From positions 1-22,497 of IMG/VR virus record IMGVR_UViG_3300008120_000744: DNA of 22,497 bases; one strand, written 5' to 3'. Source of the DNA: a virus. How positions within the stretch are numbered: position 1 is the stretch's first letter; the number at the start of each line of letters is the position of its first letter. Both the position numbers and the translations under genes were made by a program. Under the pieces are notes generated by a model. It was not told the origin of the DNA and searched no databases. It worked only from the letters and a program-made list of their open reading frames with translations. Positions 4,657 through 19,363 of this stretch are shown here, one piece after another.

Positions 4657-5654
4657 AAATTTTTATTACAGGCATCGCAGGTTTTCTTGGTAGCCATTTG
4701 GCTGACCGAATGTTGGAACTAGGACACGAAGTTGTTGGTAATGATACTTTGATTGGTGGTTACCGTGATAATGTACCTAAAGGTGCAAAACTTCATGTGG
4801 TAGATTGTTGTGATGTTGAAAGTATGACATTCTATATGCAAGGTGCCGATATCGTTATTCATACTGCCGCTACAGCACACGAAGGACTTTCCGTATTCTC
4901 TCCAAGTTTTATTACCAAGAATATCTTTGAAGCATCCGTTGCAACCATTTCTGCTGCAATACAAAACAAAGTGAAACGATTTGTATATTGCACATCAATG
5001 GCACGATATGGTAATCAACCACATCCTTTCACAGAAGATATGACACCACAACCGGTTGACCCATATGGTGTTGCTAAAGTTGCTGGTGAAGATGTATTAA
5101 AGATTCTCTGTGAAACACATGGCATGGAATGGAATATTGCAGTACCACATAATATTGTTGGTCCTCGTCAAAAGTATGATGATCCATTCCGTAATGTGAT
5201 GAGTATTATGATTAATCGTAATCTCCGTGGTTTACCTGCAATCATTTATGGTGATGGCCAACAAACTCGTTGTTTCTCATATGTTGATGATTGTGTTGGT
5301 TGTTTGGAGAAAATGGCACTTGATCCTAAAGTTGTAAGTCAAATTATTAATATTGGACCTGACGATGGCACAGTAACAATTAAAGAACTTGCTAAGTTAG
5401 TTGCAGAAGCCACAGGTTTTCAAGGTGAAGCAATTCATATGCCAGACAGGCCACGAGAAGTGAAACACGCAGACTGTTCTGCTGATAAAGCTCGTTGGTT
5501 GTTGAACTATGAAACCAAAACAACACTACAACAATCAATACAAGAAACAGTAGAGTATATTAAAGAAAAAGGACCTAAAGATTTTGATTATGCTTATCCT
5601 TTAGAAATCGTTACCGAAAAAACTCCTAAGACTTGGTCAGAAAGATTAATGTAA
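4653..5654 (+). CDS. NAD-dependent nucleotide-sugar epimerase/dehydratase (extended SDR)
   Basis: The protein has 333 residues, the normal length for this family. The N-terminal Rossmann motif GIAGFLGSH (7-15) binds NAD(P). The catalytic serine is in VYCTSMARYG (S115), and the Y138-x-x-x-K142 pair lies in DPYGVAKVAGE. Substrate-side segments VPHNIVGPRQKYDDP and IYGDGQQTRCFSYVDD are typical of UDP-glucose/GlcNAc 4-epimerases and related dehydratases. The enzyme probably makes a nucleotide-sugar donor used by the neighbouring glycosyltransferases. Whether it is a 4-epimerase, 4,6-dehydratase or 3,5-epimerase cannot be decided. It starts at an ATGA overlap and ends at a TAATG overlap, so it is translationally coupled on both sides. 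Confidence 0.88.
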   Translation: MKIFITGIAGFLGSHLADRMLELGHEVVGNDTLIGGYRDNVPKGAKLHVVDCCDVESMTFYMQGADIVIHTAATAHEGLSVFSPSFITKNIFEASVATISAAIQNKVKRFVYCTSMARYGNQPHPFTEDMTPQPVDPYGVAKVAGEDVLKILCETHGMEWNIAVPHNIVGPRQKYDDPFRNVMSIMINRNLRGLPAIIYGDGQQTRCFSYVDDCVGCLEKMALDPKVVSQIINIGPDDGTVTIKELAKLVAEATGFQGEAIHMPDRPREVKHADCSADKARWLLNYETKTTLQQSIQETVEYIKEKGPKDFDYAYPLEIVTEKTPKTWSERLM

Positions 5655-6427
5655 TGGCAACAATATCGTTTCTACATTTGGCTTCGGCTGGTAAACAAAT
5701 ATCTACCGAAAAAGTAGTAAGTAATATAAGACAATATCATCCTAATGCCTACTATTTTCTAGGTTCAGATGCGGCAGATGATTTATCAGATATTGCCAAA
5801 CGATATAAATTAGATTATCATTATTTTAATGACAAACTAGGATATCCAACACAGCCATTTGGATATCGTAAAGAAAAGGTATTGATGTGGCTGGAAAGAT
5901 TCCATTATGCCTGTGAAAACTGCAATACATCACATATTATGATGGTAGAAGATGATGTTTGGATTAAGAAACCCATTACAGTAAAAGACGAATGGGAAAT
6001 GGCTTGTCATAAGATTAGTCATGGTAATCGTTTTCCACCAGAAGTATTAAAGATGATGGAAGAATTCTCTGGTGTAAAACCAAAGACTGATTTTTATGGT
6101 GGTGGCGGCGGTTCAATTTATAATGTCAAAACATTTTTGAGAAACTATACAAGAATGACGGCATTGGTCAATGACAAGTGGGATTATATACAAGATAATT
6201 TTTATCCCACGATTGGTTGGATGGATTGTTTCATGGTTGCATATTATTTCTTTTGTGGTAAAGACTACACAGAGAACCCATATATGACTGATACACACCA
6301 TCACCAAAAAGGTTTTGATTTTGATAAATTTGTAGACGAACAACCAGAACACATTGAGATTATCAATAACTATAAAAAATATTATTGGCCAGAAAGTCAA
6401 GATGTCCTTACTTTTAGCACAGTATGA
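5654..6427 (+). CDS. Probable GT-A glycosyltransferase (VEDD motif)
   Basis: ATG 5654 shares its A with the preceding TAA stop (TAATG) and gives MATISFLHLASAGKQIS; the upstream TTG at 5633 would add only seven unlikely residues. The 257-residue protein has SHIMMVEDDVWIKKPI at residues ~93-108, whose E-D-D is a typical metal/nucleotide-sugar motif (a DxD variant). This is followed by a glycine-rich YGGGGGSIYN at ~153-162 and a GWMDCFM segment at the acceptor side. The 'VEDDVW..KP' plus 'GGGG(S/G)' combination fits GT-A-type enzymes that modify surface polysaccharides. No transmembrane segment is seen. Its end overlaps the next gene's start by 26 bases. The acceptor is unknown. Confidence 0.7.
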   Translation: MATISFLHLASAGKQISTEKVVSNIRQYHPNAYYFLGSDAADDLSDIAKRYKLDYHYFNDKLGYPTQPFGYRKEKVLMWLERFHYACENCNTSHIMMVEDDVWIKKPITVKDEWEMACHKISHGNRFPPEVLKMMEEFSGVKPKTDFYGGGGGSIYNVKTFLRNYTRMTALVNDKWDYIQDNFYPTIGWMDCFMVAYYFFCGKDYTENPYMTDTHHHQKGFDFDKFVDEQPEHIEIINNYKKYYWPESQDVLTFSTV

Positions 6428-6968
6428 ACAAAATCGCCATAGGTATTTGGATACAGATAAAGAATATCCTGCACATGGTTATATAAGTAGATTCTACACT
6501 TTTGAATTTGAAAAATATAAAAACAGACAAATTAATTTATTAGAAATAGGTTGTGCATCTGGTGGAAGTCTTTTGTTGTGGTCAGATTATTTTAATAATG
6601 CAATAATATATGGTGTAGATACTGGCCAAGATGGCCGATTCAAAAAATGTCTAAGTTCTACAGCAGGTAATAATAGAATAAGGTTATATCAGGCTAGTGG
6701 TTATAATCCTGATTTAGTAAATGCTTTACCCAATTTTGATATTATAATTGATGATGGACCACACACAAAAGAAAGTCATCTACAATTTTTAGATTTATAT
6801 GTACCAAAATTAAATAGAGGTGGTGTTTTGATTATAGAAGATGTGGAAGATATCAACTACGGCAAAGAATATTGCCAAAAATTAACACCAGATTTTCAAT
6901 ATGCAACGCTTGACATTAACACCAAAAAAGAATATAATAGTATATTATTTGTGGCAAGAAAACTATGA
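6402..6968 (+). CDS. Class I SAM methyltransferase, CmcI/TylF-like
   Basis: I chose ATG 6402 (MSLLLAQYEQNRHRYLDTDK). An upstream ATG at 6354 would add 16 residues deep inside the preceding gene. The 188-residue protein contains motif I LLEIGCASGGS (46-56), the acidic strand-2 end GVDTG (D73), FDIIIDDGPHTKESHLQFLD (112-131) and RGGVLIIEDVED. The 'IDDGPHT' segment is characteristic of the cephalosporin hydroxylase/macrocin O-methyltransferase (CmcI/TylF) type, in which Asp/His residues bind Mg2+ near the acceptor hydroxyl. I infer sugar O-methylation inside the glycan pathway encoded around it. It is the second methyltransferase of the block and shares little beyond the core motifs with the one at 4126. 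Confidence 0.78.
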   Translation: MSLLLAQYEQNRHRYLDTDKEYPAHGYISRFYTFEFEKYKNRQINLLEIGCASGGSLLLWSDYFNNAIIYGVDTGQDGRFKKCLSSTAGNNRIRLYQASGYNPDLVNALPNFDIIIDDGPHTKESHLQFLDLYVPKLNRGGVLIIEDVEDINYGKEYCQKLTPDFQYATLDINTKKEYNSILFVARKL

Positions 6969-7693
6969 ATGACATTACAATCGTAACCGCTTTCTTTGAT
7001 ATTGGTCGTGGTGATTGGACACCAGATAAAGGTTTACCACACTATCTACACAGAACCAATAAAACTTATTTTGACAGGTTTGGTCACATGGCTAAACTTG
7101 ATAATCCAATGGTCGTCTATACATCAAAAGAATTTATAAATGACATAAAGTTTATAAGACAAGATAGACCAACCGAAATTCTAGCGCTTGATTTCCCTAA
7201 CAGTTTTGAAAAACTTAGAGAAGAAATTATTGGGGTTCAAAAAGACCCACAGTATCAAGCCAAAATAAATCCCATGCAAGTAAAAAATCCAGAATACTGG
7301 AATGCTGACTACGTTCTCGTCAATTTATTAAAATCTTCTTTCGTCACGAAAGCCATGCAAACAAACTTAATACAAACAGATTTGGTTGCTTGGTTGGATT
7401 TTGGTTATTGCCGTGAAGAATCTACTCTTAACAATGTAAAGAAGTGGCAATATCCTTTTGCCAAAGACAAGATTACTGGACCATGTATTGTTGCAGGTAA
7501 AGATGTTTGGCCTATATTAGAACAGTTAGTTCACCATAATGTTGGTGAATTAATTAAAAATAATTTAATAGATGATGACCAAACTTTATTGTTGATGTCA
7601 TATTTACAAAAACCAGAATTGTTTGAGCTACATAAAGTTTCTAGTAATGACTGGTTTGTAGCTTTTAAGGAATATAATGTTAATTCAAATTGA
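6965..7693 (+). CDS. HtrL/YibB-family (WlaTC-like) putative glycan-modifying protein
   Basis: The 242-residue protein starts at an ATGA overlap with the N-terminus ITIVTAFFDIGRGDW. This is the hallmark of the HtrL/YibB family of bacterial proteins found in LPS-core and capsule clusters and thought to be glycosyltransferases. Family-like features follow: HRTNKTYFDRFGHMAKLDNP, the VVYTS strand, and LVAWLDFGYCRE at ~141-152 with an acidic residue positioned like a DxD-type donor site. No membrane helix is visible. Its neighbours support a role in building or decorating a surface-like glycan. Catalysis has, to my knowledge, been little studied for this family, so 'glycosyltransferase' is an inference. 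Confidence 0.8.
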   Translation: MNDITIVTAFFDIGRGDWTPDKGLPHYLHRTNKTYFDRFGHMAKLDNPMVVYTSKEFINDIKFIRQDRPTEILALDFPNSFEKLREEIIGVQKDPQYQAKINPMQVKNPEYWNADYVLVNLLKSSFVTKAMQTNLIQTDLVAWLDFGYCREESTLNNVKKWQYPFAKDKITGPCIVAGKDVWPILEQLVHHNVGELIKNNLIDDDQTLLLMSYLQKPELFELHKVSSNDWFVAFKEYNVNSN

Positions 7694-8402
7694 TTGTACC
7701 GCCAACCTAGGTGATTTTGCTAATGCTTTACCAGTAATCTCTGGCCTATCTCTCTTTGACAAACGACCAATTGATTTAATTATTCGTGGTGAAATGAGAA
7801 AATTTAATGGTATCAAAGAACTTCTGTTACAGCAACCATGTATTAACAATGTTGAATTTAGTGATGAAGTTTTCTCTCATGGTGCAATCAAGTTAAGTTC
7901 TTGGACTCGTATGGACCAAGATGATAAAAATCGGCCAGTTGAAACTTGCCGTTATGAAAATTGGATTCGTGATAATTATGGATTTGATTTTAAAGTTGAT
8001 GATAACTTTGAATTAGTGATTAATCCTATGAATGGCATTGCCATAGAAAGTACCAACAAATATATCATTGGTGATAGGTGGAATCATTCAACAATTGACA
8101 ATCGTAGAAAAACTCATGTTGTTCGTGATGGTGTAAATCCCGATTGGTCAAAAGTGTTTTATTTGAATTATGATATGTCATTAATGTATAATTTGAATAT
8201 GATTAAAAATAGTCCTAAACCTTTTATTAGCACTTTTACAGGCATTGGTATTCTTGCTGACCTGATGAATAAAGAAACAATTGTTTGTTGGGACGAAGAT
8301 ATGAGAATGTGGGACGGACATCCTGTTGAGTTTGATTTCATTCGTCATTATTATGGTGACCGTAAATCTAAATTGGTTTATGTGAAAGATGTTGTTCTAT
8401 GA
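7677..8402 (+). CDS. GT9/heptosyltransferase-like protein (first of a tandem pair)
   Basis: The 241-residue ORF overlaps the preceding gene by 17 bases. Its start, MLIQIDCTANLGDFANALPV, matches the N-terminal 'R...lGDvi.alPvi..L' signature of GT-B ADP-heptose:LPS heptosyltransferases (GT9), including the GD pair and the ALP motif. KPFISTFTGIGILADLMNKETIVCW near 180-205 corresponds to the C-terminal donor-binding region of GT9, in which 'dtG..HlA.alg.p.v' is usual. The protein is shorter than a full GT9 enzyme (~340 residues), so one domain is probably reduced. It forms a tandem pair with the next gene, which has the complementary 'GGDTGSSHFAWAL' motif; the two may work together or derive from duplication. 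Confidence 0.6.
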   Translation: MLIQIDCTANLGDFANALPVISGLSLFDKRPIDLIIRGEMRKFNGIKELLLQQPCINNVEFSDEVFSHGAIKLSSWTRMDQDDKNRPVETCRYENWIRDNYGFDFKVDDNFELVINPMNGIAIESTNKYIIGDRWNHSTIDNRRKTHVVRDGVNPDWSKVFYLNYDMSLMYNLNMIKNSPKPFISTFTGIGILADLMNKETIVCWDEDMRMWDGHPVEFDFIRHYYGDRKSKLVYVKDVVL

Positions 8403-9112
8403 TTATCAATATTGAACCAGGAACTTTTGGCACAGTCCGAAATGGTGACATGATTGCTGTTGCTAATGTATTAGAACATATACGAAAAATCAACAATGAT
8501 CCAATGATTCAGTTTCACTTGAAACCTGGAAATGTTAGCTCTGACACACATTGTCAAACATTCTATGAGATAATGTTGAAGATGACTAACTATTTTTCAT
8601 CAGAACCAGGTGAACAATCATTGCCTTGGAGAAAAGTTAATGTTTGGGATTTCAGAGATATATCTGGTGATTTGGTAAAAATACCAAACAATGCACCAAT
8701 GGAAAAGAAGATTGCTGTATTTCCATTATTTGATGCACCATACAATCAATGGCGTAACTGGCCAAAGGATGTATATGAACAGATTATTGCCAAATATTCT
8801 ACCGAAGAATATAAAGATTATGAAAAAGTAATCTGTAAAAAAGGTGCACCTACCGAAAGTTGCCCATTTGAAGGTTGGCGGTATTCTACCAATTTTGTTC
8901 AGAATTATTACCACATTACCACAGCCGAAGTCTTTGTGGGTGGTGATACAGGTTCTAGCCATTTTGCTTGGGCTCTTGACAGAGGACCTAAAGACCTGAT
9001 ATACTACGGATCCAGTAGAGGATTAGTTCATACTTTACCATTTTATTTAATAGAAGGTAAAGGAAAAATGTCGACCTACTGGCTGGACTTTGAAGGTACT
9101 AAATGGAATTAA
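8399..9112 (+). CDS. GT9/heptosyltransferase-like protein (second of a tandem pair)
   Basis: The 237-residue protein starts at an ATGA overlap. The N-terminus IEPGTFGTVRNGDMIAVANV is a rough GT-B N-domain start ('GD' followed by 'A..VL..I'). The C-terminal part contains AEVFVGGDTGSSHFAWAL (~182-199), close to the GT9 signature 'lvvgnDtGp.HlAaal' that binds the ADP-sugar. A central KKIAVFPLFDAPYNQWRNWP resembles the 'h.p.a....+.Wp.+.+..l' strand/helix of the same fold. It is the last gene of the glycan island. Only 137 noncoding bases, with a hairpin and a late-type promoter, separate it from the next gene, so it is probably the end of a transcript. Confidence 0.65.
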   Translation: MIINIEPGTFGTVRNGDMIAVANVLEHIRKINNDPMIQFHLKPGNVSSDTHCQTFYEIMLKMTNYFSSEPGEQSLPWRKVNVWDFRDISGDLVKIPNNAPMEKKIAVFPLFDAPYNQWRNWPKDVYEQIIAKYSTEEYKDYEKVICKKGAPTESCPFEGWRYSTNFVQNYYHITTAEVFVGGDTGSSHFAWALDRGPKDLIYYGSSRGLVHTLPFYLIEGKGKMSTYWLDFEGTKWN

Positions 9113-9249: not shown

Positions 9250-10494
9250 ATGTTTTCGTTTTCAATGTTTCTCAAAGAGGAAGATGAGGGTGGTAAACTC
9301 AAGCATATAACTCATGCTGAGGACAGGCCTCTACAAAAAGGATCCGAAGGTTTTGGTCACGCAGTTGGTGCATTACAACAAGCACATGAGCACATTAAAT
9401 CTGGTGGTCACAGCACCGCATTAACCATGAAATATGATGGTTCTCCATCATTAGTATTTGGTCATCATCCAGAAACCGGTAAATTCTTTGTAGCATCAAA
9501 ATCAGCTTTCAATAAAAATCCAAAAATCAACTATACAAATAAAGATATTGAAAAAAACCATGGCCATGCACCAGGTTTGGTTGAGAAATTAAAACACGCA
9601 TTAGAACACTTACCTAAAGTGTCACCAAAAAAAGGTGTGTATCAAGGTGATGTAATGTTTAGTGGTGAAGATAAAAAAGAAACAAAACATGGTGTTTCAT
9701 TTACTCCAAACACAATCACATATTCAGCCAAAGGTGAAGAAGGTGATAGAATTCGTAAAGCTAAGTTTGGTGTAGTAGTTCATCAACAATATCATGGTAA
9801 CGATATTGCTTCAATGAAAGCGGATGCTAGTCCTGATGTTCATAATTTCAAACAACACGAAGATGTTTGGCATAAATCAGCTGAACATGATTCATCGAAA
9901 ATAAACTATTCAGAAAAAGACCAAGAACAATTTAGAAAACATATTGACTCTGCACAAAAAATACACGATAAAATGGGTCAACAAATGTATCATGTCACAG
10001 AACCTCATCGTGGTGAAGGTGGTCATTTAGAAACATATATTAATCAAACTGTTAGAACAGGTGAAAAACCTACAGCAAAAGGTTTACAAAAACACATACA
10101 AAATAAATTTGTTAAAGCTGCATCCAAATTAAAAACACCAGCAGCACAATCAAGAAAAGAAACAGAAGCCAAATCTCATGTGCAACATATTGAAGGTAAT
10201 GCCGAACACTATAATAACCTCCTAAATATGCATCACCATTTACAACAAGCAAAAAATGTATTGGTGAAAAATTTAGAAAAAAATACTGGCGGTTTAGAAC
10301 ATCACATTGATGGTAAGCCAACAGGACCTGAAGGTTTTGTTGTTAACTATGGTGGCGAACCAACCAAATTGGTTAATAGAGCTGAGTTTGCAAGAGCCAA
10401 TCTATTGAAAGTAAGAAAACCTTCAATAGAAGATAAACCTAAACAGACAAAGAAAAAAGCAGTTAAAGTAGATTACGAAAACGATCCACAATGA
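9250..10494 (+). CDS. KxDG nucleotidyltransferase/ligase-like protein with N-terminal capsid-targeting-like sequence (DUF6267-like)
   Basis: AAGGAA at 9240-9245 supports ATG 9250. The 414-residue protein carries what looks like a full set of motifs of the covalent nucleotidyltransferase superfamily (DNA/RNA ligases, capping enzymes): motif I K61-Y-D-G64 in LTMKYDGSPSLVFG; motif III KGVYQGDVMF (128-137); a IIIa-like segment FGVVVHQQYHG (173-183); motif IV GPEGFVV (359-365); and motif V TKLVNRAEF (372-380). K61 would carry the AMP/GMP. The helical insert at 200-350 is His/Lys/Gln-rich. The tail is basic. The first ten residues, MFSFSMFLKE, resemble the T4 internal-protein targeting signal ending in L-x-E. 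I recall a related conserved family in cyanophages (called DUF6267, with KWDG). Enzymatic activity is inferred. It is the first gene after the late promoter, so it is made late and possibly packaged in the head. Confidence 0.7.
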   Translation: MFSFSMFLKEEDEGGKLKHITHAEDRPLQKGSEGFGHAVGALQQAHEHIKSGGHSTALTMKYDGSPSLVFGHHPETGKFFVASKSAFNKNPKINYTNKDIEKNHGHAPGLVEKLKHALEHLPKVSPKKGVYQGDVMFSGEDKKETKHGVSFTPNTITYSAKGEEGDRIRKAKFGVVVHQQYHGNDIASMKADASPDVHNFKQHEDVWHKSAEHDSSKINYSEKDQEQFRKHIDSAQKIHDKMGQQMYHVTEPHRGEGGHLETYINQTVRTGEKPTAKGLQKHIQNKFVKAASKLKTPAAQSRKETEAKSHVQHIEGNAEHYNNLLNMHHHLQQAKNVLVKNLEKNTGGLEHHIDGKPTGPEGFVVNYGGEPTKLVNRAEFARANLLKVRKPSIEDKPKQTKKKAVKVDYENDPQ

Positions 10495-10694
10495 AGTCAT
10501 TTAAAGAATACACCAAATCTTTACATGGAGCAATTGCTTCACACCATTTAACTGGCCATGCGTTACATATTCGTAAAGAAGGCAATGGTCATTACGGACT
10601 TTATTCTGGAGGAAAATCAGTTGCAACAATTTTTGCCGATAGTGAATCTGCCGCTATAAGAATTTTGAGAAAAAAAGGATATGATATAAAATGA
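10491..10694 (+). CDS. Small basic protein with internal-protein-like N-terminus
   Basis: The 67-residue protein has an ATGA overlap on both sides. It starts MKSFKEYTKS, close to the start of T4 internal protein IPI (MKTFKEFTS as I recall it), but lacks Glu at position 10, so no cleavage site of the (L/I)-x-E type is seen. The remainder is His/Gly-rich (HLTGHALHIRKEGNGHYGLY) then GGKSVATIFADSESAAIRIL and a basic end, predicted as a short beta-beta-helix domain. Function is unknown. Its place between two larger capsid-targeted-like proteins suggests an internal head protein. Small size leaves some doubt, but tight coupling and a sensible composition support a real gene. Confidence 0.6.
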   Translation: MKSFKEYTKSLHGAIASHHLTGHALHIRKEGNGHYGLYSGGKSVATIFADSESAAIRILRKKGYDIK

Positions 10695-11869
10695 TTGGCC
10701 TTTCGTTTATTTTTGAGAAAATATCTTCAAAAAATAAAAAATCTGTTGAACAGGTGATTCAGCAAGCTCGTAGTCAGGCCGATGCCAATAAAGAATCAAC
10801 ACATCGTTCAAATGTAAATGAATTTTTATTGGCTCATCATTTAGCCAAAGCTGCAGGATTAAAAGACACTAGACCAGGTGAAACTGAAGAAGAAAAAACA
10901 TCCGCACAAGCCAGACATGATGCATCAAAAGAAAAAATAAGTCCTGAAGAATATGAACATCAAAGCCAAAGGGCTAAACATATGGCTCAAGCCTCTATAC
11001 TAGAATATAAAAAAAGAGGTATTGATTTAACCAAAGCAAAAAGTGTTCATCTAAGTGCTGGTAAAGGTGCAATAAAAAAAATAACAGGTCTCAATATTGA
11101 AAGTAAAGACAATACTTCAGATGTTATGCTTAAAGTACCACATAAAAAACATGGAACAATATACCCTGGTATTTCAGCAAAATCTAATATGGAAAATACT
11201 GAAGGCAAAGGCGCTGAAAGAATTTCAAATCCAGGATTAACACCTATAGCCAAATCTCTTGGTGAAAAATGGCATGAAGATGAATATCCTAAACTAGATG
11301 ATTTTGCTGAAAGAAAAGGTATATCACATTTACCTTTAAGTAGCAAAAAAGAAAATGCCGAAGGCAGAAAACAATGGCTTCGTAAATCTGGCAATGAAGA
11401 ACATTTGGATCATGCAAAAGAAGAAGGTAATAAAATATTAAATAGTGTAAGGGAATCTTATTTTAATAAGTTGAATAAATTACCTACAGAAGAAATTAGA
11501 AAACATTTGGCTTCTAATCATTTTAGAACAAATGAAAGTAAAGAAGAAGATAATACTAACGAAAGAACGCCATATATAGTTGCTTCAGGTTATGGAACAA
11601 AAAAAGGAGAATATGGTGCACACGCACATGGAATGGAAACAGATTCTTCTGCTCATGTGGATGCATTAAGCCGAGCTCACCATTTTACATTTGAAAAAAG
11701 TGGTGGAAATGGTATTAGAGTTTATGCACACAAAGATGAAAATGACACGGCCGGAAATCATTTAATTACGGTCGCATCAAAATTTAATTCACAACCGATG
11801 GCAAGTTCTATCAACTTTGTTGGTACTGAAGGCACCTTAAAACCTAAAAAAATTAAAAAACCAGAATGA
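10691..11869 (+). CDS. Late phage protein, possible PD-(D/E)XK-like nuclease, with capsid-targeting-like start
   Basis: The 392-residue protein starts at an ATGA overlap with MIGLSFIFE, a variant of the targeting signal with I-F-E at 7-9. Residues ~40-55 (SNVNEFLLAHHLAKAAG) are followed after a charged helix by SDVMLKVPHKKHG and YPGISAKSN (~138-162). The order E...D...(S)-x-K is what PD-(D/E)XK nucleases show (helix Glu, strand Asp, strand S/E-x-K), and a similar S-D-(V/F)...S-x-K block occurs in the 1363 gene. Downstream ERISNPGLTPIAKSLGEKW is conserved-looking, and the C-terminal third (PYIVASGYGTKKGEYGAHAH...) is Gly/His-rich. I do not recognise a named family. The nuclease idea is an inference from motif order; a structural internal protein is the alternative. 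Confidence 0.55.
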   Translation: MIGLSFIFEKISSKNKKSVEQVIQQARSQADANKESTHRSNVNEFLLAHHLAKAAGLKDTRPGETEEEKTSAQARHDASKEKISPEEYEHQSQRAKHMAQASILEYKKRGIDLTKAKSVHLSAGKGAIKKITGLNIESKDNTSDVMLKVPHKKHGTIYPGISAKSNMENTEGKGAERISNPGLTPIAKSLGEKWHEDEYPKLDDFAERKGISHLPLSSKKENAEGRKQWLRKSGNEEHLDHAKEEGNKILNSVRESYFNKLNKLPTEEIRKHLASNHFRTNESKEEDNTNERTPYIVASGYGTKKGEYGAHAHGMETDSSAHVDALSRAHHFTFEKSGGNGIRVYAHKDENDTAGNHLITVASKFNSQPMASSINFVGTEGTLKPKKIKKPE

Positions 11870-13674
11870 AATCATTTTTAGAGATAGTTCAAGAAGCTGA
11901 ATCATTACAGAAACATCATGTGATGACTTTTGGCCGCATGAATCCTCCTACAACAGGACATCTTAAACTTATTCATAAAGTCAAAGAAGTTGCAGATAAA
12001 CATAATGCAGGTCATACTGTTGTGGCATCTCATTCACAAGATTCCAAGAAGAATCCATTGTCTGGTGAACAAAAAGTTAAACATCTTAAACGATACGCAC
12101 CAGGCACAAACATTAAAAGTTCTTCAAAAGAACATCCATCTATTTTTCATCATGCGGCCGAATTACACAAACAAGGTGTAACTCATCTTCATGTAGTTGT
12201 TGGTTCTGACCGTGTCAAAGAATTTAAAGATTCATTACACAAGTATAATGGTGTAAAAGGTAAACATGGGCATTATAACTTTAAAAAGATTACTGTTCAT
12301 TCTGCTGGTCATCGTGATCCAGATGCTGAAGGTTCTGAAGGTATGTCTGGCACCAAGATGCGTGGCCATGCGGCTTCAGGTAATTACAAAGAATTCAAAA
12401 AAGGTGTACCAGAGCACGTACCTGAACACCATGCAAAAGAACTGTACCATGATACTCGTAAAGGTATGGGAATACATGAAAATGTCAATCGTGGCCTTTT
12501 TAAAGCAATATTCGTAACAGGTGGACCTGGTTCTGGTAAAGATATTATCATTCGTGAAGCCATACCAGAATCTCGTGCAGTAGAATTAAATTCAAGTCAG
12601 GCATACGATTATCTTGCTGATAAACAAAAATTATCTGAAAAAACCAGTGATTTCCGTAGAGAAGCCATTCGAAACCGTGGTCCTTTAATTATTAATGGAC
12701 CAGCAGACAGTATTGATAAAATCAACCATATCAAAGAAGAATTGGAAGATTTAGGTTATTCGACCATGATGGTATTTGTTAATACTACAAACGAGGTAAG
12801 CCAAGAAAGAAATACCAAATTATCTCGTATGATGGTTGAATCTATTCGTTATGACAAGTGGTCACAAGCTCAGAAAAACAAACAACTTTTTTCAGAATCC
12901 TTTGACCGGTTTATACAAGTAGATAATACAGGCTCTTTGGAATCAATTGAAGAAGATATAACTCAAACTTACCTAAATATTCATAACTTCATTGAAGGCA
13001 AAGTCTATGGTGATATATCTTTGTCTTGGTTAGAAAAACATGGTAAGTTAAATACAGGTGACAACTTAATTAAGGAAGAAAAAAATGTTAAAAGCAATTC
13101 TAGACTATTTGAAAATAAAGCCCGCCTCATCCGAACTGGCCTGCCCAAAGCAGACGGACCAGACAGCATCAGCCCCGACAACCGAGGCAACGAGCCCCAG
13201 TCCGATGACATCAAATACAACGCAGGCAAACGAACAAAAACCTACACCTTCAAAACCTACAGCGAAGCCCAAGAGCCAACCCTCCAAGTCAACCCGGAGC
13301 CAAAAGAAACCAACTTCTCCAAAGACAAAGAGAAAGTAAAGAAGAAACGAATAGTAGATGCCCCAACCGTAAGTCAAAGACTACGGAACACCACAGGTGT
13401 GGGGCCAGAATTTGATACACGCCAGCAGGGAACAGTATATCCCATGTCCGGTCTAGGCGATGTAACATACAGAGAACAAAAAGAATTTAATAGTTTTAGA
13501 AAAACAATTAAAGAATATAAAGGCTTTCAAAATGACATTTCTATATCCGATATGGGTGTAGGTGGAACTTTGAATGGCGCTACTAATTTTGAACCGATGC
13601 AATCATATAAAGATGCGGATAGAAATATTGGCACACAAATAAAAATTAAAAAGAAAAAGAAACAGGAGAAATAA
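11866..13674 (+). CDS. Nucleotidyltransferase-P-loop kinase fusion with capsid-targeting-like start (NadR-like architecture)
   Basis: The 602-residue protein starts at an ATGA overlap with MKSFLEIVQE, a targeting-signal match with Glu10. Domain 1 (about 15-200) is a cytidylyltransferase-like nucleotidyltransferase: FGRMNPPTTGHLKLI (22-36) carries the (H/T)-x-G-H motif, VVGSDRV (111-117) and MSGTKMR (160-166) the C-terminal nucleotide-binding signature. Domain 2 (about 210-380) has a Walker A motif FVTGGPGSGKD (216-226) and a LIINGPAD strand, like small-molecule or polynucleotide kinases. Domain 3 (about 415-602) is a phage-conserved charged tail with GPDSISPDNRGN and TTGVGPEFDTRQQGTVYPMS, ending in poly-Lys. 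An NMNAT-like plus kinase order recalls NadR, but substrate is unknown. Bases ~13115-13420 are strongly C-rich at third positions, unlike the rest of the gene, and overlap a +1-frame ORF. Confidence 0.75.
   Translation: MKSFLEIVQEAESLQKHHVMTFGRMNPPTTGHLKLIHKVKEVADKHNAGHTVVASHSQDSKKNPLSGEQKVKHLKRYAPGTNIKSSSKEHPSIFHHAAELHKQGVTHLHVVVGSDRVKEFKDSLHKYNGVKGKHGHYNFKKITVHSAGHRDPDAEGSEGMSGTKMRGHAASGNYKEFKKGVPEHVPEHHAKELYHDTRKGMGIHENVNRGLFKAIFVTGGPGSGKDIIIREAIPESRAVELNSSQAYDYLADKQKLSEKTSDFRREAIRNRGPLIINGPADSIDKINHIKEELEDLGYSTMMVFVNTTNEVSQERNTKLSRMMVESIRYDKWSQAQKNKQLFSESFDRFIQVDNTGSLESIEEDITQTYLNIHNFIEGKVYGDISLSWLEKHGKLNTGDNLIKEEKNVKSNSRLFENKARLIRTGLPKADGPDSISPDNRGNEPQSDDIKYNAGKRTKTYTFKTYSEAQEPTLQVNPEPKETNFSKDKEKVKKKRIVDAPTVSQRLRNTTGVGPEFDTRQQGTVYPMSGLGDVTYREQKEFNSFRKTIKEYKGFQNDISISDMGVGGTLNGATNFEPMQSYKDADRNIGTQIKIKKKKKQEK
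13085..13339 (+). CDS. Candidate overprinted small ORF inside the nucleotidyltransferase-kinase gene (+1 frame)
   Basis: An 84-residue ORF in the +1 frame begins at ATG 13085, preceded by a strong AAGGAAG (13073-13079) 5 bases upstream. It encodes a short amphipathic start (MLKAILDYLKIKP) then a Pro/Thr/Ser/Lys-rich, very basic tail with repeated PTP/KPT/PSK units. The host gene turns abruptly from A/T-ending to C-ending codons across the stretch. In this geometry the host third position is the second position of the small ORF, so C there codes Ser/Pro/Thr/Ala. That is what dual-coding selection for such a protein would leave. The GC shift continues ~80 bases past its stop, which argues against a perfect fit. 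Low complexity and no known homologue keep confidence modest. Confidence 0.35.
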   Translation: MLKAILDYLKIKPASSELACPKQTDQTASAPTTEATSPSPMTSNTTQANEQKPTPSKPTAKPKSQPSKSTRSQKKPTSPKTKRK

Positions 13675-13675
13675 A

Positions 13676-14920
13676 ATGTTTGTTAATAAACTTAAAATGA
13701 ATTCAGTTGCTGAAGCTGTTAAAAAAATTACAGAGGAACAACCTGTTACTGAAGCCGAAAAAGTAGCTACTGCAACTGGCATGAAAGTTTACGGTTCTTC
13801 ATATGGCAATTCAGCCAAAGCTCGCCGTGACCAAGTTAAAAAAGACATTGATACACTCAAAGGTCCTAAAACAAAAGACTTAATTCAAAAAGACAAAGAA
13901 GATTATGAGAAAACCAAAGGCAGATACGATGAAGCTGCCAAACCAGACTTTTTAGACTTTGATAAAGATGGCGACAAAAAAGAACCAATGAAAAAAGCTT
14001 TAGGTGATAAGAAGAAATCTGGTGGCACAAATGAAAGCCATGAATTTAAGAACAAACTAATTGAAGCTCTTAAAGGTAAACAACACAAGATTGATAAGAA
14101 TAAAAATAACAAGATTGATGCTCAAGACTTTAAGATTCTTCGTGGTGAAAAAAATGTAACAGAAGCTTCTTGTGATGATGAAGTAAAGAAACACGAAAAG
14201 AAGATGCATGGTAAAGATGGTGAAGTTGCCAAACACGTTGATAAGATGCACAAAGAAGAAGTAGAGCAGATTGAAGAAAAAGAAATGACTGACGCCGAAA
14301 TGGCCAAGCGTGAGAAGATTGTTAAGTCTATGAAAAAAGGTTTTGCTGGTTTCAGACAGCGTTATGGAAAAGATGCTAAGTCTGTAATGTATGCAACCGC
14401 CACTAAACAGGCAATGAAAGAAGAATCAGTTGAAGAAGAAATTGATCCTAAAGTTCGTACCAAAGATACATTAAAAGGTCAAGAACCAACAGCACAAAAA
14501 GATGATGTTGGTCCTGGTTCTGACGCTAAGTCCACAAAAGTAAAATTTCGTGGAGGTCCAATGAAAGAAGAAGTAAAAAAGTCTGATATTCCAGCTTTCA
14601 TTAGAAAGGCTCGTGGTGACAAACCTTTGACTGTTGCCGATGCTAAAGCTGGAAGTAAAGATTCTATTTCTTCAAAGGAAAACTTAGCGAAAGCTCGTGG
14701 TGTTTCAGAAGGTAAACATCCTGAATCCGATACAGTTCCTTTTGTGACCAATGCTGAACAACCACCTTTTGATGGACCATACAAGAAAATTGGTTCAACA
14801 GTAACAGATAAATCTGGTGCACAACACACACCAATGTCCCGTGCTAGAGATTTGGCTCGTTCTGCTATGAAACGAATCAAAACAGAGATGTTAGGTAAAG
14901 CTCCAGGAAATAACGGTTAA
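13676..14920 (+). CDS. Modular charged late protein with EF-hand-like loops and an EQIEE linker
   Basis: AGGAG (13664-13668) precedes ATG 13676; ATG 13697 (MNSVAEAVKKITE) is an alternative start. The 414-residue protein is a string of short charged modules: PDFLDFDKDGDKKEPMKKAL (90-109, a partial D-x-D-x-D-G EF-hand loop); HKIDKNKNNKIDAQDFKIL (137-155, a near-canonical 12-residue EF-hand loop D140..D151); an EEVEQIEE linker (194-201); KGFAGFRQRYGKDAKSVMYA (221-240); and a C-terminal PFDGPYKK...SGAQHTPMSRARDLA segment. I recall these modules, shuffled, in many T4-like marine and rhizobial phages. ITE at 18-20 and the linker fit the T4 prohead protease rule (L/I)-x-E, hinting at a scaffold/internal head protein processed during maturation. 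Function is unproven. Confidence 0.7.
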   Translation: MFVNKLKMNSVAEAVKKITEEQPVTEAEKVATATGMKVYGSSYGNSAKARRDQVKKDIDTLKGPKTKDLIQKDKEDYEKTKGRYDEAAKPDFLDFDKDGDKKEPMKKALGDKKKSGGTNESHEFKNKLIEALKGKQHKIDKNKNNKIDAQDFKILRGEKNVTEASCDDEVKKHEKKMHGKDGEVAKHVDKMHKEEVEQIEEKEMTDAEMAKREKIVKSMKKGFAGFRQRYGKDAKSVMYATATKQAMKEESVEEEIDPKVRTKDTLKGQEPTAQKDDVGPGSDAKSTKVKFRGGPMKEEVKKSDIPAFIRKARGDKPLTVADAKAGSKDSISSKENLAKARGVSEGKHPESDTVPFVTNAEQPPFDGPYKKIGSTVTDKSGAQHTPMSRARDLARSAMKRIKTEMLGKAPGNNG

Positions 14921-14929
14921 GGGTAAAAC

Positions 14930-16891
14930 ATGGACGCAAAGAAATTAAAATTAATTGTCAAAGGTGAAAGAAAACCCACCTTTGGCACCGATCCAAATGA
15001 ACCATGGTCTGTTCGTGCCGGTATCACCGAGAGTGAGAGAGGTGAATTACACGCTTATCTCAAATCTCGTGGTATTAATCCAGAGTTTGTTAGTAAAGAT
15101 ACAAAAATATCTCATGCAAAATCTTCAGAGTTTCATAAGTGGAGGCGTGACCATCAGTTTGATGATCCAATCAATTATGTTTCAACTACTGTTGCAGATA
15201 GAATGAAAAAACAAAGAGCTCAAACAGAAGAAATTGAAATTGAAGAAGGTAAAACATTACAACACACTCCTGTTGAGTTACGTCAACACGCAATTGATAA
15301 AGAGAAACATATGACTAAAGTTCTACACCATAATGGTTTACATAAAGAAGAATCGGAACAAATTGATGAGTTAGCACCAGAAACATTGGCATCTTATGTT
15401 CTGAAAACAACCAGTAAAGATCCAAAGCGTGCTGAACCTCGTAAGAAAGCAATGAGTAAATTAGCCAAGATTATGGCTAAACGGTCGTTTTCTGAAGAAA
15501 AGAAACCGACAGCACTAGAGAAGTTTCGTGCAGCTGCAGCTGAAAGAGAAAAGAAACACGATGAGATTCAGAAAAAACAATCTAAAGATGGTTCTGGTAT
15601 GACTGCTGCTATTGACCGCTTAGCAAAACATCTGAATAAAGAAGAAACTATTAATGAAGTTTCTAGTTCAGAAGTTCAACATCACTTTGATAAATGGACA
15701 AATTCTGAACACGCTCCTTATAATAGTGATGCTGGAGATGATAACAAAGTTCATCAGTCAGCTTTAAGATATTTAAGAAGTACCGATGTACCAAAAGAAA
15801 ACCATGAAAAGTTGGCCATGCATATTGCTCACAAATTTCATGGAAGTGGTATTGATGAAGAGGCTGAACAGATTGATGAGAAGAATGTGCCAACAAGTCC
15901 AGAAAAATGGGCTCGTGCCAAAGCAGCTGCCAAATCTAAGTTTGCAGTATATCCATCCGCATATGCCAATGGTTGGGCTTCTAAAAAATACAAAGCAATG
16001 GGTGGTGGTTGGAAATCTGTTAAAGAAGAAATTGACCTTGCTGAAAAAAATGATTCACATACACACGCCGCACATTATGAAGATCCAAAAACAGGTGAGT
16101 GGACAGGAATGAATTTGTTGATTGCAAAAGATGACGATGATGCAATTCGCCAAGCAAATGAAAAATGTAAAGAAGGATGCCGACTAACAAAAGTAGAACG
16201 ACACACTACTGTTAAAGAAGAAGTTGAACAGATTGATGAGCTCAAGAAGTCCACAGTATTTTCTTGGTTAAAACAACAACCAGTTGTACCTGAGAAAAAA
16301 CCAGGTATGAGTAGAAAAGACCACAATAAAAAAATTAAAACTAGTAGTAAGAGTTGGAATAGGGCTTTAGACCGTTTGGCTGGTTATAAACCAACATCTG
16401 AATCAGCTGGTGTAAGCAAAACAAAAGAAACTAAATTTCATAAAAAATTAGACACTCTTGTTCATAATACTTTTGGTAAAAGAAAAGATGAACTAAAGAT
16501 GAAAGAAGATGTATACCAAGATTCACAGGCCGCAACACAAACAGCCTTTGATATGGGAACTCAAGCTGATGATAGGGAACCAACATATTCCAAAAGAAAA
16601 GAAATGTCTAAATCAGCTCGTATGATTAAGTCATTATACAAGAAACACAAGATGGTCAAAGAAGAACTATATGACCATGAAAAAGAAGATAAATCAGTAG
16701 CGACATATGGTAAGAAACCAAAAGCCGAAAAACAAGAGGTTTATGGTGACGATGATACCCAAGCTGCTATGATTTTAAAAGGTGGAAAAACATTAACTGG
16801 CCAAACCAGAGATACTTTGGAAATTGATCCAGTAATGAGAAAACCAGTAAAACCTGATAATCAAATCAGCGATAGAAAAACAGATAAATAG
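14930..16891 (+). CDS. Long modular charged late protein with three EQIDE linkers (possible processed internal head polyprotein)
   Basis: The 653-residue hydrophilic protein follows the previous gene by nine bases with AAGGGT upstream. Module order: N-terminal TFGTDPNEPWSVRAGITES...LKSRGINPEFVSK (17-56); EEIEIEEG acidic link (100-107); EQIDELAPETLASYVLK (143-159); ETINEVSSSEVQHHFDKW (239-256); EQIDE at 313-317, then KWARAKAAAKSKFAVYPSAY (326-345, a DUF5872-like module); EEIDLAEK then a HAAHYEDPKTGEWTG beta module; EQIDELKKSTVFSWLKQQ (433-450); and a tail with ATYGKKPK and KTLTGQTRDTLEIDP. Three EQIDE sites and INE fit (L/I)-x-E prohead-protease cleavage, with a different domain after each. 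No membrane segment is present. It is likely a virion or core-associated protein; processing is inference. Confidence 0.7.
   Translation: MDAKKLKLIVKGERKPTFGTDPNEPWSVRAGITESERGELHAYLKSRGINPEFVSKDTKISHAKSSEFHKWRRDHQFDDPINYVSTTVADRMKKQRAQTEEIEIEEGKTLQHTPVELRQHAIDKEKHMTKVLHHNGLHKEESEQIDELAPETLASYVLKTTSKDPKRAEPRKKAMSKLAKIMAKRSFSEEKKPTALEKFRAAAAEREKKHDEIQKKQSKDGSGMTAAIDRLAKHLNKEETINEVSSSEVQHHFDKWTNSEHAPYNSDAGDDNKVHQSALRYLRSTDVPKENHEKLAMHIAHKFHGSGIDEEAEQIDEKNVPTSPEKWARAKAAAKSKFAVYPSAYANGWASKKYKAMGGGWKSVKEEIDLAEKNDSHTHAAHYEDPKTGEWTGMNLLIAKDDDDAIRQANEKCKEGCRLTKVERHTTVKEEVEQIDELKKSTVFSWLKQQPVVPEKKPGMSRKDHNKKIKTSSKSWNRALDRLAGYKPTSESAGVSKTKETKFHKKLDTLVHNTFGKRKDELKMKEDVYQDSQAATQTAFDMGTQADDREPTYSKRKEMSKSARMIKSLYKKHKMVKEELYDHEKEDKSVATYGKKPKAEKQEVYGDDDTQAAMILKGGKTLTGQTRDTLEIDPVMRKPVKPDNQISDRKTDK
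16883..16890 (+). promoter_or_regulatory. Possible weak late promoter (GATAAATA) before the structural gene
   Basis: GATAAATA at 16883-16890 differs from the T4 late element by one base, overlaps the end of the 14930 gene, and lies 33 bases upstream of ATG 16924. The ATG has a very strong AAGGAG (16912-16917) six bases away, one of the best ribosome binding sites in the window. This would allow extra expression of an abundant virion protein. One-mismatch matches are common in AT-rich DNA. Confidence 0.3.
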
Positions 16892-16923: not shown

Positions 16924-17544
16924 ATGCCATTATGGGGAAACACAGACCGAGCCAACAACGAGCCAAACTTTCCAGAAAATAGAGAGGTTCGTCCAGTAGC
17001 CGCATTAATAACCGCCAATGCGACAGCATTAGGCACCAACGAAATCATATTTACAACCAATCCAACGCTATCTGGTATTGCGAACGGAATGTATGTTTAT
17101 GCAACTGCAAATAACGGCTTATCCCGTTTCTTTGACACATCTATCATTGATCCTAATGATATTGATTTCAAACGTGGTAATAACAGCGTTGCAGTTATAA
17201 GAACAGGTGCAGCCAATGTTCGTATTCAATTTGCTAACAACACAGTTGCACCAATTGCTGCTGGTCAAACCATTGAATTTGCCACAGCCATTAATCACGG
17301 CACAAACACAGCTTCTCGTTTTGCTAACGATACCATCATGGTAACAAGCACTCGTTTAGCTAATGCTTTGATTGCTGGTGCAAATAGTGGTATTCATCAA
17401 GGTTGGAATCGTTTCACATACAAAGTGAACAATGACGGTACAAAACGCCAACTAAGAGAAACATTGGTTGTTCTTGCTAATCCAAGCGCACTAAACGTAA
17501 GCTCTGGAAATACAAGTACCAACTCAGTATTCTCTGGCCTATAA
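16924..17544 (+). CDS. Putative virion structural protein (MPLWGN family)
   Basis: The gene has the best leader of the cluster (AAGGAG at 16912-16917, 32-base gap), consistent with abundant product. The 206-residue protein begins PLWGNTDRANNEPNFPENRE, then Ala/Thr/Asn-rich beta-strand segments (VAALITANATALGTNEIIFT; VAPIAAGQTIEFATAINHGT) and a conserved-looking C-terminal GIHQGWNRFTYKVNNDGTKRQ-type segment followed by ETLVVLANPSA. I recall the 'M.LWGN.D...N.P+' start and the 'GW...T.G.GGR...ETLVA(M/L)' end in virion structural proteins of cyanophages and other marine T4-like phages. There is no capsid-targeting-like N-terminus, in contrast to its neighbours. It may be a head decoration or neck/tail-associated protein; the exact place in the virion cannot be told. 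Confidence 0.7.
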   Translation: MPLWGNTDRANNEPNFPENREVRPVAALITANATALGTNEIIFTTNPTLSGIANGMYVYATANNGLSRFFDTSIIDPNDIDFKRGNNSVAVIRTGAANVRIQFANNTVAPIAAGQTIEFATAINHGTNTASRFANDTIMVTSTRLANALIAGANSGIHQGWNRFTYKVNNDGTKRQLRETLVVLANPSALNVSSGNTSTNSVFSGL

Positions 17545-18002
17545 TGTTGGGATTTAAGCAATTTGTTGTAGAAGGACATGATTCAATTCCTACTGCACAT
17601 ATTGAAAAAAGTGGTTCAAACTTGGCGGACAAAACAACCCGCCAAGAGTTGAATCACAACCTAGCATTAGCTGTAGCAGGAAACAATATAAATCCATACT
17701 CAGCATGGAATCGTGTAAGTAAAGTTTTAGTTTTGTTTGGCATAACTCTCCCTAAAGTAATATTTCACGATTTAGACATGGGTGAAGAAATTGTGCATAT
17801 AGACCAATTCGGTGCTCGTTCGGGTGCCGAATTGAATGGCACAGTAGAGAAGATGAATAATTTGGATGAAGTTCAATATTATTTTTATTTTTCTTATGAA
17901 ATGGATGATAATGGTTACTATGATGTTGAAGCGATGATTTCTGATGAAAATGAGTTAGATGATTATCTTTCTTCAGAGGAACCAGATATAGAAGAAGAAT
18001 GA
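17544..18002 (+). CDS. Conserved T4-like phage protein with capsid-targeting-like start
   Basis: TAATG overlaps the structural gene's stop. The 152-residue protein begins MLGFKQFVVE, matching the M-x-x-F-x-x-F-V-x-E10 pattern. The body has INPYSAWNRVSKVLVLFGITLPKVIFHDLDMGEEIVHIDQFG (50-91 or so), an alpha/beta segment I recall in conserved marine T4-like phage proteins in which a 'lp...f.....G.e...i.QFG' region is typical. The C-terminus is very acidic (ENELDDYLSSEEPDIEEE). No catalytic motif is visible. The acidic tail could be a processed or charge-balancing part of an internal head protein. Function is unknown. Confidence 0.65.
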   Translation: MLGFKQFVVEGHDSIPTAHIEKSGSNLADKTTRQELNHNLALAVAGNNINPYSAWNRVSKVLVLFGITLPKVIFHDLDMGEEIVHIDQFGARSGAELNGTVEKMNNLDEVQYYFYFSYEMDDNGYYDVEAMISDENELDDYLSSEEPDIEEE

Positions 18003-18006
18003 TATA

Positions 18007-18393
18007 ATGATTGATGATTTAAATGATGATAATTTTTTGATATACGCAATGAAGTGTTATAATGCACCACATTGTATTTTATCTGAATTTGAAAGTGATA
18101 TTAAACGAACAAAATATTTGAAGCGTTTATTTCGTAGATATAAAGTAACAAAATCTCTTAAAGAGAGGTTGATATTAAATCACATTATTTTATTGAATAA
18201 TGTTTTTGGTCCAGAACCAACAGCCAGAATATTATTCTATAAGATAGATGAAAGAGATTATGATATATTGAAAACTTTTTTATCTTATTTAAATATTATG
18301 CCAGATATGATTTACGGAATTAAAGGTAAAAATATATCTGTTGCAGAAGTTCCAATAGATGTTAATGTCGCAGAGATATTGAGGCAAATATGA
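18007..18393 (+). CDS. Conserved T4-like phage protein (small helical), function unknown
   Basis: The 128-residue protein begins MIDDLNDDNFLIYAMKCYNAPHCI, with the start 4 bases after the preceding stop. It is rich in predicted helices (EFESDIKRTKYLKRLFRRYK; LKERLILNHIILLNNVFGPEP; ARILFYKIDERDYDILKTFL). The series 'F..YA.K.Y..P.C......F..D+.R.KY+KRLF.RY' and 'L+ERLILNHII.L.NVFG....R+LFYK+' is one I recall in a conserved protein of cyanophages and pelagiphages encoded near virion genes. There is no capsid-targeting start, membrane segment or known catalytic motif. It is likely cytoplasmic. Codon use is more A/T-ending than in the flanking genes. Confidence 0.65.
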   Translation: MIDDLNDDNFLIYAMKCYNAPHCILSEFESDIKRTKYLKRLFRRYKVTKSLKERLILNHIILLNNVFGPEPTARILFYKIDERDYDILKTFLSYLNIMPDMIYGIKGKNISVAEVPIDVNVAEILRQI

Positions 18394-18710
18394 AAACATT
18401 CAAACAGTTTGTAAACGAAGAATACTTGGATGAAAAATCTCCAGCATGGCAACGTGCTGCAGGTAAAGATCCAGAAGGTGGCCTAAATCGTAAAGGTATT
18501 GCTTCGTATCGTAGAGAAAATCCAGGTTCTAAATTGTCGATGGCTGTAACAACAAAGCCATCTAAACTAAAACCAGGTTCTAAAGCAGCCAATCGTAGAA
18601 AATCATTTTGTGCTCGTATGGGTGGTATGAAGAAACGATTAACATCTGCTAAGACAGCAAATGATCCAGATAGCCGTATCAACAAAGCATTAAGAAAGTG
18701 GAACTGCTGA
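18390..18710 (+). CDS. Small basic phage protein with FCARM...RKWNC modules and capsid-targeting-like start
   Basis: The gene starts at an ATGA overlap. The 106-residue protein begins MKTFKQFVNE (Glu10 of the targeting pattern), followed by EYLDEKSPAW, which adds an L-D-E site. The remainder is a conserved basic module: KDPEGGLNRKGIASYRRENPG, then KAANRRKSFCARMGGM, then DPDSRINKALRKWNC. I recall this series (GGLN..G..SY..ENPGS / FCARM.GM / NDP.SRIN+.LRKW.C) in many phage proteins, and DUF6321 may be its Pfam name. The paired Cys (FCAR and the C-terminal Cys) and high basic content would suit nucleic-acid binding. It could be a DNA-associated internal head protein. Function is inferred, not known. 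Confidence 0.65.
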   Translation: MKTFKQFVNEEYLDEKSPAWQRAAGKDPEGGLNRKGIASYRRENPGSKLSMAVTTKPSKLKPGSKAANRRKSFCARMGGMKKRLTSAKTANDPDSRINKALRKWNC

Positions 18711-19363
18711 TGCAATCTTTCAAAGAATACCTTGGTGAAGATTTACGCCAATGGTTTAAACAAAAGTGGGTTCGCATGGACACCAAAGGTAATATCAAAG
18801 GTGATTGTGCAAGAGAACCAGGTGAAGGCAAACCAAAATGTTTACCTCAAGCCAAAGCACACGCCATTGGTAAAGAAGCTCGTGCTTCAGCTGCTCGTAG
18901 AAAGCGTAGAGAGGATCCTAATCCAGAACGCCGTGGTGCACCAATCAATGTAAAGACTGAAAGTGTTTTTGAAGCCTGTTGGAGAGGTTATGTTGCCAGA
19001 GGTATGAAGAAAAAAGGCAATCGTATGGTGCCTAATTGTGTACCAGAAGAAACAGTAGAAGAAAAGTGGACAGACAAATACAAACGTAGTATTGATTGTA
19101 ATAATCCAAAAGGATTTTCTCAGAAAGCTCATTGTCAAGGCCGTAAGAAAAATGAAGAACTTGATATTCCGGTTTTAGAAGGTGAAGAAGAATGGTCAAT
19201 GAGAGTTATAGATGAAGATGGTGTAGTGGGTGGTTCAGCAGGACCAACAAATGTAACTGGTGTTGCAACATCTACTGATCCTATTAGTGCTAGTGCTGTT
19301 AATAGAAAGAAAAGAACAAGTCCTGTAATGTTGTCTATCAGGAGAAAATCTCCAAAGGCTTAA
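18710..19363 (+). CDS. Cys-containing modular basic late protein with capsid-targeting-like start
   Basis: I chose ATG 18710, a TGATG overlap with the previous stop; the upstream ATG 18698 would add MELL. The start MQSFKEYLGE is an excellent targeting-pattern match with the L-G-E site ending at residue 10. The 217-residue body joins short modules recalled from other phages: KQKWVRMDTKGNIKGDC...KCLPQAKAHAIGKEARASA (16-62); FEACWRGYVARGMKKKGNRM then VPNC (88-112); DCNNPKGFSQKAHCQGRKK (129-147); and a C-terminal GGSAGPTNVTGVATSTDP plus basic end. Cys pairs spaced like small zinc ribbons and high Lys/Arg suggest nucleic-acid binding. An internal head protein is the best guess; function is unproven. 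Confidence 0.65.
   Translation: MQSFKEYLGEDLRQWFKQKWVRMDTKGNIKGDCAREPGEGKPKCLPQAKAHAIGKEARASAARRKRREDPNPERRGAPINVKTESVFEACWRGYVARGMKKKGNRMVPNCVPEETVEEKWTDKYKRSIDCNNPKGFSQKAHCQGRKKNEELDIPVLEGEEEWSMRVIDEDGVVGGSAGPTNVTGVATSTDPISASAVNRKKRTSPVMLSIRRKSPKA

Follow-up and report, generated by a model that had tools for sequence, protein, structure and literature searches.

The window analysed here is a viral DNA stretch of 22,497 nucleotides (IMG/VR record IMGVR_UViG_3300008120_000744), and the subject of this study is the open reading frame at 9250-10494 of its plus strand, which opens with ATG and runs for 414 codons. The features of this gene and of its tagged neighbours are collected in Table 1. 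Directly upstream (2583-9112), the window holds open reading frames resembling, by appearance only, glycosyltransferases, a sugar epimerase and methyltransferases.

Table 1. Features of the DUF6267 gene and of the tagged genes downstream, in window coordinates
Feature	Position	Strand	Basis
DUF6267 protein (414 aa): tag, covalent-nucleotidyltransferase-like domain, helical insertion	9250..10494	+	ORF; Pfam; model; VIA-align
Capsid-targeting-like tag MFSFSMFLKE, residues 1-10; possible prohead-protease cut after E10	9250..9279	+	T4 IPII/IPIII N-termini; 74/83 homologues; low pLDDT at 1-14
Family signature H19-x-x-H22-x-E24-D25, 5' of motif I	9304..9324	+	H19, H22, E24 invariant; D25 in 65/66
Motif I, K61-Y-D-G, predicted nucleophilic lysine	9430..9441	+	Invariant; K61 on T4-type Rnl1 K99 (HHalign)
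Motif Ia, F79-F-V-A-S-K84-S-A-F87	9484..9510	+	F80, V81, K84, F87 invariant; aligned with Rnl1 FKSKGS
Motif III, YQGD134VMF (residues 131-137)	9640..9660	+	D134 invariant; Q132 in 65/66; model strand 130-138
Motif IIIa-like strand ending H178-x-x-Y181	9766..9792	+	H178, Y181 invariant in homologue alignment; model strand 173-182
Helical insertion, residues 222-342, between IIIa and IV	9913..10275	+	DSSP of model; conserved N265, R269, K335
Motif IV, E361-G-F-V-V (residues 361-365)	10330..10344	+	E361, G362, V364 invariant; E361-G on Rnl1 E227-G (HHalign)
Motif V-like, T-K373-L-V-N-R377	10363..10380	+	K373, R377 invariant; K373 on Rnl1 K240
Tagged partner MKSFLEIVQEAE: HIGH-type adenylyltransferase (~15-204) and polynucleotide-kinase-like P-loop domain (~210-365)	11866..13674	+	Pfam CTP_transf_like, Zeta_toxin; model; structure matches
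Tagged ORF MLGFKQFVVEG	17544..18002	+	Tag scan
Tagged ORF MKTFKQFVNEEY, DUF6321	18390..18710	+	ORF list; Pfam; tagged orthologue in related contig
Tagged ORF MQSFKEYLGED	18710..19363	+	Tag scan

A known family, near-universal in T4-like cyanophages

The sequence-only reading had missed the family of this protein. In hmmscan, it is a full-length match to Pfam DUF6267 (PF19782; E 5.2e-100, 335.8 bits against a gathering threshold of 27), covering positions 2-373 of the 376 of the profile, and it matches phrog_455 as well. The protein is hence not an orphan and belongs to a known family (PF19782 DUF6267, phrog_455, T4-GC 71), for which neither Pfam nor phrog assigns a function and the cyanophage members of which are annotated as hypothetical. 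A full-text search of the open-access literature for DUF6267, phrog 455 or T4-GC71 returned no paper.

The family is widespread in cyanophages. By tblastn, DUF6267 turned up in 470 phage records, of which 371 bear the name Synechococcus and 61 the name Cyanophage; the gp20 portal protein of cyanophages, searched with a strict cut-off, was found in 381 and 62 such records, respectively, both tallies being made by record name and not matched record by record. By these counts, about 97% of the T4-like cyanophage records carry DUF6267, which is thus close to universal in these phages. Homologues also occur in GTDB genome contigs, for which a cellular origin was considered. As many of them carry the tag and have the HIGH partner nearby, we regard most of these bacterial and archaeal members as phage contigs that ended up in metagenome bins, or as prophages.

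In the S-PM2 record AJ630128.1 (5986-7765, p138/p139), DUF6267 and the HIGH domain are split over two overlapping frames, and BFVD contains one S-PM2 protein of 591 residues with both domains; the original record looks frameshifted at this place. Furthermore, some cyanophage records annotate proteins of this neighbourhood (JN371769.1, 145362-146246, and S-PM2 p141) as "NrdB ribonucleotide reductase A subunit", and in JN371769.1 this annotation conflicts with the DUF6267 match.

Motifs and predicted fold of a probable covalent nucleotidyltransferase

Conservation was assessed in two sets of homologues, namely 66 aligned IMG/VR proteins sharing 31-93% identity with the window protein and 20 members, including those of named phages, sharing 22-66%. 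In both sets, K61, D63, G64, P66, K84, D134 and H178 are invariant, as are E361, G362, V364, K373, R377, F380 and N384 in the C-terminal part. The motifs that the sequence-only reading had listed, I (KYDG at K61), III (131-137), IV (361-365) and V (TKLV, 372-375), are all present and in the order claimed, and, because residues of each are invariant in the 66 homologues and in the 20-member set, this motif set goes beyond chance. Its description as a full ligase set has to be qualified. The nucleophilic lysine falls in register with K99 of T4 Rnl1, and motifs III, IIIa, IV and V follow one another as in ligases, with E361/G362 and K373 invariant, but motifs III and V deviate from the consensus of ligases: motif III has an aspartate (D134) in place of glutamate, and motif V reads K-L-V-x-R, the second lysine of K-x-K being missing and an arginine (R377) standing two residues further on. 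Position 375 is accordingly V, I or N in DUF6267, whereas the corresponding K242 is invariant in the Rnl1 set. We know of no ligase with the H-x-x-H-x-E-D signature that precedes motif I.

An AlphaFold2 model built on the 66-row alignment has a mean pLDDT of 90 and a pTM of 0.86, with disorder only at the tag (residues 1-14) and in the last nine residues; in the model, an insertion of some 120 residues, folded as helices, separates IIIa from IV. Foldseek against the PDB gave weak matches (best E 0.18; ligases at E 0.5-1.7). Its list at E >0.1 also holds capping enzymes, LigA, Trl1 and the Pnkp1/Rnl/Hen1 complex, and its ranking was not relied on, with unrelated CorA and dehydrogenase chains on top. 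The fold comparison with T4 RNA ligase and DNA ligase families that had been proposed beforehand was more telling with VIA-align 2, run on the Foldseek candidate pool: the 50 best entries are, without exception, RNA or DNA ligases. The top match is the Naegleria RNA ligase NgrRnl (6vt9; Z 8.7 over 185 residues, 3.8 A), followed by Trl1 (6n0v, Z 8.2), REL1 (1xdn, 7.9) and T4 Rnl2 (1s68, 7.7) and, further down, by T4 Rnl1 (9do4, 7.0) and human DNA ligase 1 (6.6), so that RNA ligases are closest by a small Z margin. Taken alone, a Z of 8.7 is modest and barely exceeds the range common by chance; it is the uniformity of the best 50 entries, rather than this score, that makes the ligase fold persuasive. 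NgrRnl, a nick-sealing RNA ligase of Naegleria gruberi, shares 10-12% identity with DUF6267, and as the match starts at its residue 140, its N-terminal domain has no counterpart in DUF6267.

The register of the motifs was examined by aligning two DUF6267 family alignments to a seven-member T4 Rnl1 alignment with HHalign. For one of them, the best local match falls on motifs I-Ia and places K61 on K99 (P 0.032); for the other, it falls on motifs IV-V and places E361 on E227 and K373 on K240 (P 0.024). Each P value is weak, and both matches fall on catalytic residues; the same profiles, run as controls against the family of the unrelated partner, gave P 0.31 and 0.42 and matched outside the motifs. 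Only the seven-member Rnl1 alignment gave a signal, the DUF6267 family profile giving none against single ligases.

Profile and sequence searches did not connect DUF6267 to any ligase family. Searching the PDB by sequence, with the protein itself or a profile of 15 members as query, returned no ligase; hmmscan of 15 members at E values up to 10 matched no ligase family, including PF09511, PF01068 and PF01653 (the latter two being ATP- and NAD-dependent DNA ligases); NCBIfam and PADLOC gave no ligase family match; and a scan of the viral_contigs collection for Rnl1 relatives found none. Membership in the Rnl1 family was rejected, with no PF09511 match and no K-x-K in motif V, and membership in the DNA ligase families was rejected for lack of a sequence match to PF01068 or PF01653. 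DUF6267 is thus classed as ligase-like, yet neither as an Rnl1 nor as a DNA ligase. With T4 RNA ligase 1 (gp63), it shares KxDG followed by EGxV, three catalytic residues in register and, in the model, the fold; it differs by its motif III aspartate, by K-x-V-x-R in place of K-x-K and by the helical insertion.

Judging from motifs and model, the domain very probably folds as a covalent nucleotidyltransferase, K61 being the predicted nucleophile. Given its departures in motifs III and V, we regard DUF6267 as a divergent branch of the covalent nucleotidyltransferase (KxDG ligase) class and not as an Rnl1; the class is known, whereas the branch would be new and its setting is unusual. Of the ligase-type enzyme first proposed, the nucleotidyltransferase/ligase fold is supported by the model, while sequence searches matched no ligase family.

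A capsid-targeting-like tag and a tagged partner

The N-terminus of the protein, which the sequence-only reading took for an internal-head-protein tag, is indeed similar to MKTYQEFIAE, the N-terminus of both T4 IPII and IPIII. The tag pattern is found at 74 of 83 distinct homologue N-termini, the starts of which were chosen by the analyst upstream of the HxxHxED signature, whereas among 443 internal methionines of a related contig of 115 kb only one fits it. The long contig of the close relative L029 (115 kb) has 5 tagged open reading frames among 124, all within nine consecutive genes, where shuffled N-termini would yield about one to two per 124; these five encode the DUF6267 protein, the HIGH protein and three small proteins that apparently have orthologues in the window. 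A gp21-type protease and gp23 are encoded in three of the five long related contigs, including L029, the window being a 22-kb fragment. The likeness to T4 thus covers both the N-terminus and, in relatives of the window, the protease. It has limits: in the window clade, the P1' residue is frequently Glu, T4 having Ala there, and the T4 internal head proteins are small, whereas the cargo proposed here has a predicted enzyme fold.

Most of the cyanophage DUF6267 proteins examined start right at HLEHxED and, unlike the window clade, have no tag, which would limit packaging to part of the family. Among cultured phages, Methylophilales phage Melnitz has a tagged DUF6267 protein. In the available text of a virion proteomics study, the DUF6267 protein (T4-GC71) is not named, whereas T4-GC190, the S-SM1 homologue of the HIGH partner, is listed as detected in purified virions (PMC3037559). 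T4-GC190 is tagged, with MKKFSAFLNEAER at its N-terminus, and its gene overlaps the DUF6267 gene. Among experimental results, this detection comes closest to supporting the tag as a mark for packaging. From its N-terminus, the window version of DUF6267 is probably packaged in the capsid.

The HIGH-type partner is a near-constant companion of DUF6267, since it lies downstream of it or is fused to it in 62 of the 66 loci with enough sequence (fused in seven). The model of the window partner has a pLDDT of 91. Its nucleotidyltransferase domain resembles PPAT (Z 14.5) and NMNAT-like enzymes (Z 12.8), and its P-loop domain is closest to the bacterial polynucleotide kinase CthPnkp of Clostridium thermocellum (Z 13.4); Foldseek retrieved NadR (6gyf, E 7e-7), which likewise combines a HIGH domain with a P-loop kinase, and also the 4xrp RNA repair complex. 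The P-loop of the window partner reads GKD and not GKS/T, and the kinase domain, unlike the nearly universal HIGH domain, is confined to part of the family. No phosphatase domain was seen.

In the window, two open reading frames with no significant family match (10491-11869) lie between the two genes, which are adjacent (63 bases) in L029 and L025. Downstream of the partner (13676-16891), two low-complexity open reading frames contain repeated acidic stretches of the KEE-EQIDE type, and in S-SM1 a comparable acidic/basic protein adjoins GC190; the window pair may be core or scaffold proteins.

Possible roles in infection

The explanation that we favour, and consider rather likely as a whole from sequence and model, is a packaged covalent AMP-transferring enzyme that seals or caps nucleic-acid ends. 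In this scheme, the ten-residue tag would carry the protein into the prohead core, a T4-type prohead protease would cut after the glutamate of the tag, and the enzyme would enter the host along with the DNA. K61 would then accept AMP, with ATP or a different molecule as donor, and pass it on to a nucleic-acid 5' end, leading to sealing or capping early in infection, together with the co-tagged HIGH adenylyltransferase encoded downstream, which here also has the polynucleotide-kinase-like domain. Packaging, nucleotidylation of K61, substrate and timing are what we infer. For the activity itself, we give the sealing or capping of nucleic-acid ends an even chance. The gene neighbourhood, with a HIGH adenylyltransferase and a PNK-like kinase, favours nucleic-acid ends over a protein modification of the Alt type.

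That the motifs are coincidental and the fold unrelated to ligases is very improbable: the absence of a sequence-level ligase match and the weak Foldseek E values would fit such a reading, but the motif residues are invariant, the best 50 structural entries are all ligases and two profile alignments fall in catalytic register with clean controls. A conserved fold turned to another use, either as an AMP transferase acting on proteins or metabolites or as a non-catalytic structural protein of the core, is unlikely, although motifs III and V are off consensus, the PPAT/NMNAT and NadR-like folds of the partner suggest small-molecule nucleotides and T4 Alt is an earlier case of a modifying enzyme that is packaged (PMC9503650). 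Against a dead scaffold speaks the invariance of K61 and its surrounding residues in all aligned homologues, and a Pfam scan of the window protein revealed no other enzyme domain. More specific roles in nucleic-acid repair were also weighed. T4 Rnl1 and Pnkp repair tRNAs cut by host anticodon nucleases, and DUF6267 might do so with the PNK-like kinase of its partner, as an RNA-repair ligase pre-made in the virion. The RNA ligases among the best fold matches, the likeness of the kinase to CthPnkp and the 4xrp match argue for this role; the restriction of the kinase to part of the family beside a nearly universal HIGH domain, the GKD P-loop and the lack of a visible phosphatase domain make it doubtful.

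The other role is that of a DNA (nick) ligase that has gone unrecognised in T4-like cyanophages and related phages; it would act at replication or on the injected DNA and take the place of gp30. According to two earlier accounts, no DNA ligase has been recognised in T4-like cyanophages; one of them allows for distant unidentified homologues while preferring absence (PMC2984593), and the other points to a DNA-binding domain of ligase type that stands alone (PMC7824862). With the catalytic part missing and homologues of such a binding domain (AAX44695.1) occurring in the same cyanophage records, DUF6267 is a candidate for the catalytic part of the missing ligase. Its near-parity with gp20 in Synechococcus and Cyanophage records and the position of its cyanophage gene close to UvsX, gp41 and MazG are consistent with this role. 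So is a survey of 17 DUF6267-bearing records, 12 belonging to named phages and five being IMG/VR contigs, in which PF01068 was found in four, PF09511 and PF09414 in one and PF01653 in none, known ligase families occurring in only four of the 17. These four phages, however, carry DUF6267 in addition to an ATP-dependent DNA ligase; moreover, a capsid tag is odd on a replication enzyme, the host ligase can substitute, according to one account (PMC2984593), and the closest folds are those of RNA rather than DNA ligases, if by a small margin. Overall, we find a DNA ligase role rather unlikely. P-SSM2 AAX44695.1 (15440-16063) itself corresponds to Pfam DUF6433, and its homologues are found in DUF6267-bearing records of cyanophages, pelagiphages and Methylophilales phages.

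A broader scheme would make DUF6267 and its partner a virion-delivered end-sealing machine, with an NAD+-type dinucleotide as AMP donor that the NMN-adenylyltransferase-like partner regenerates, and in cyanophages the missing DNA ligase. We judge it quite improbable; cofactor recycling by the partner was set aside, as nothing supports it directly and the partner is as PPAT-like as it is NMNAT-like.

DUF6267, a family without assigned function, is near-universal in T4-like cyanophages, most of which have no recognised DNA ligase according to the two accounts (PMC2984593; PMC7824862). With a ligase-fold assignment and named catalytic residues, this old gap becomes testable with one purified protein. 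Moreover, should the tagged form be found in virions, a nucleotidyltransferase and a second one encoded beside it would join the short list of enzymes delivered by phages.
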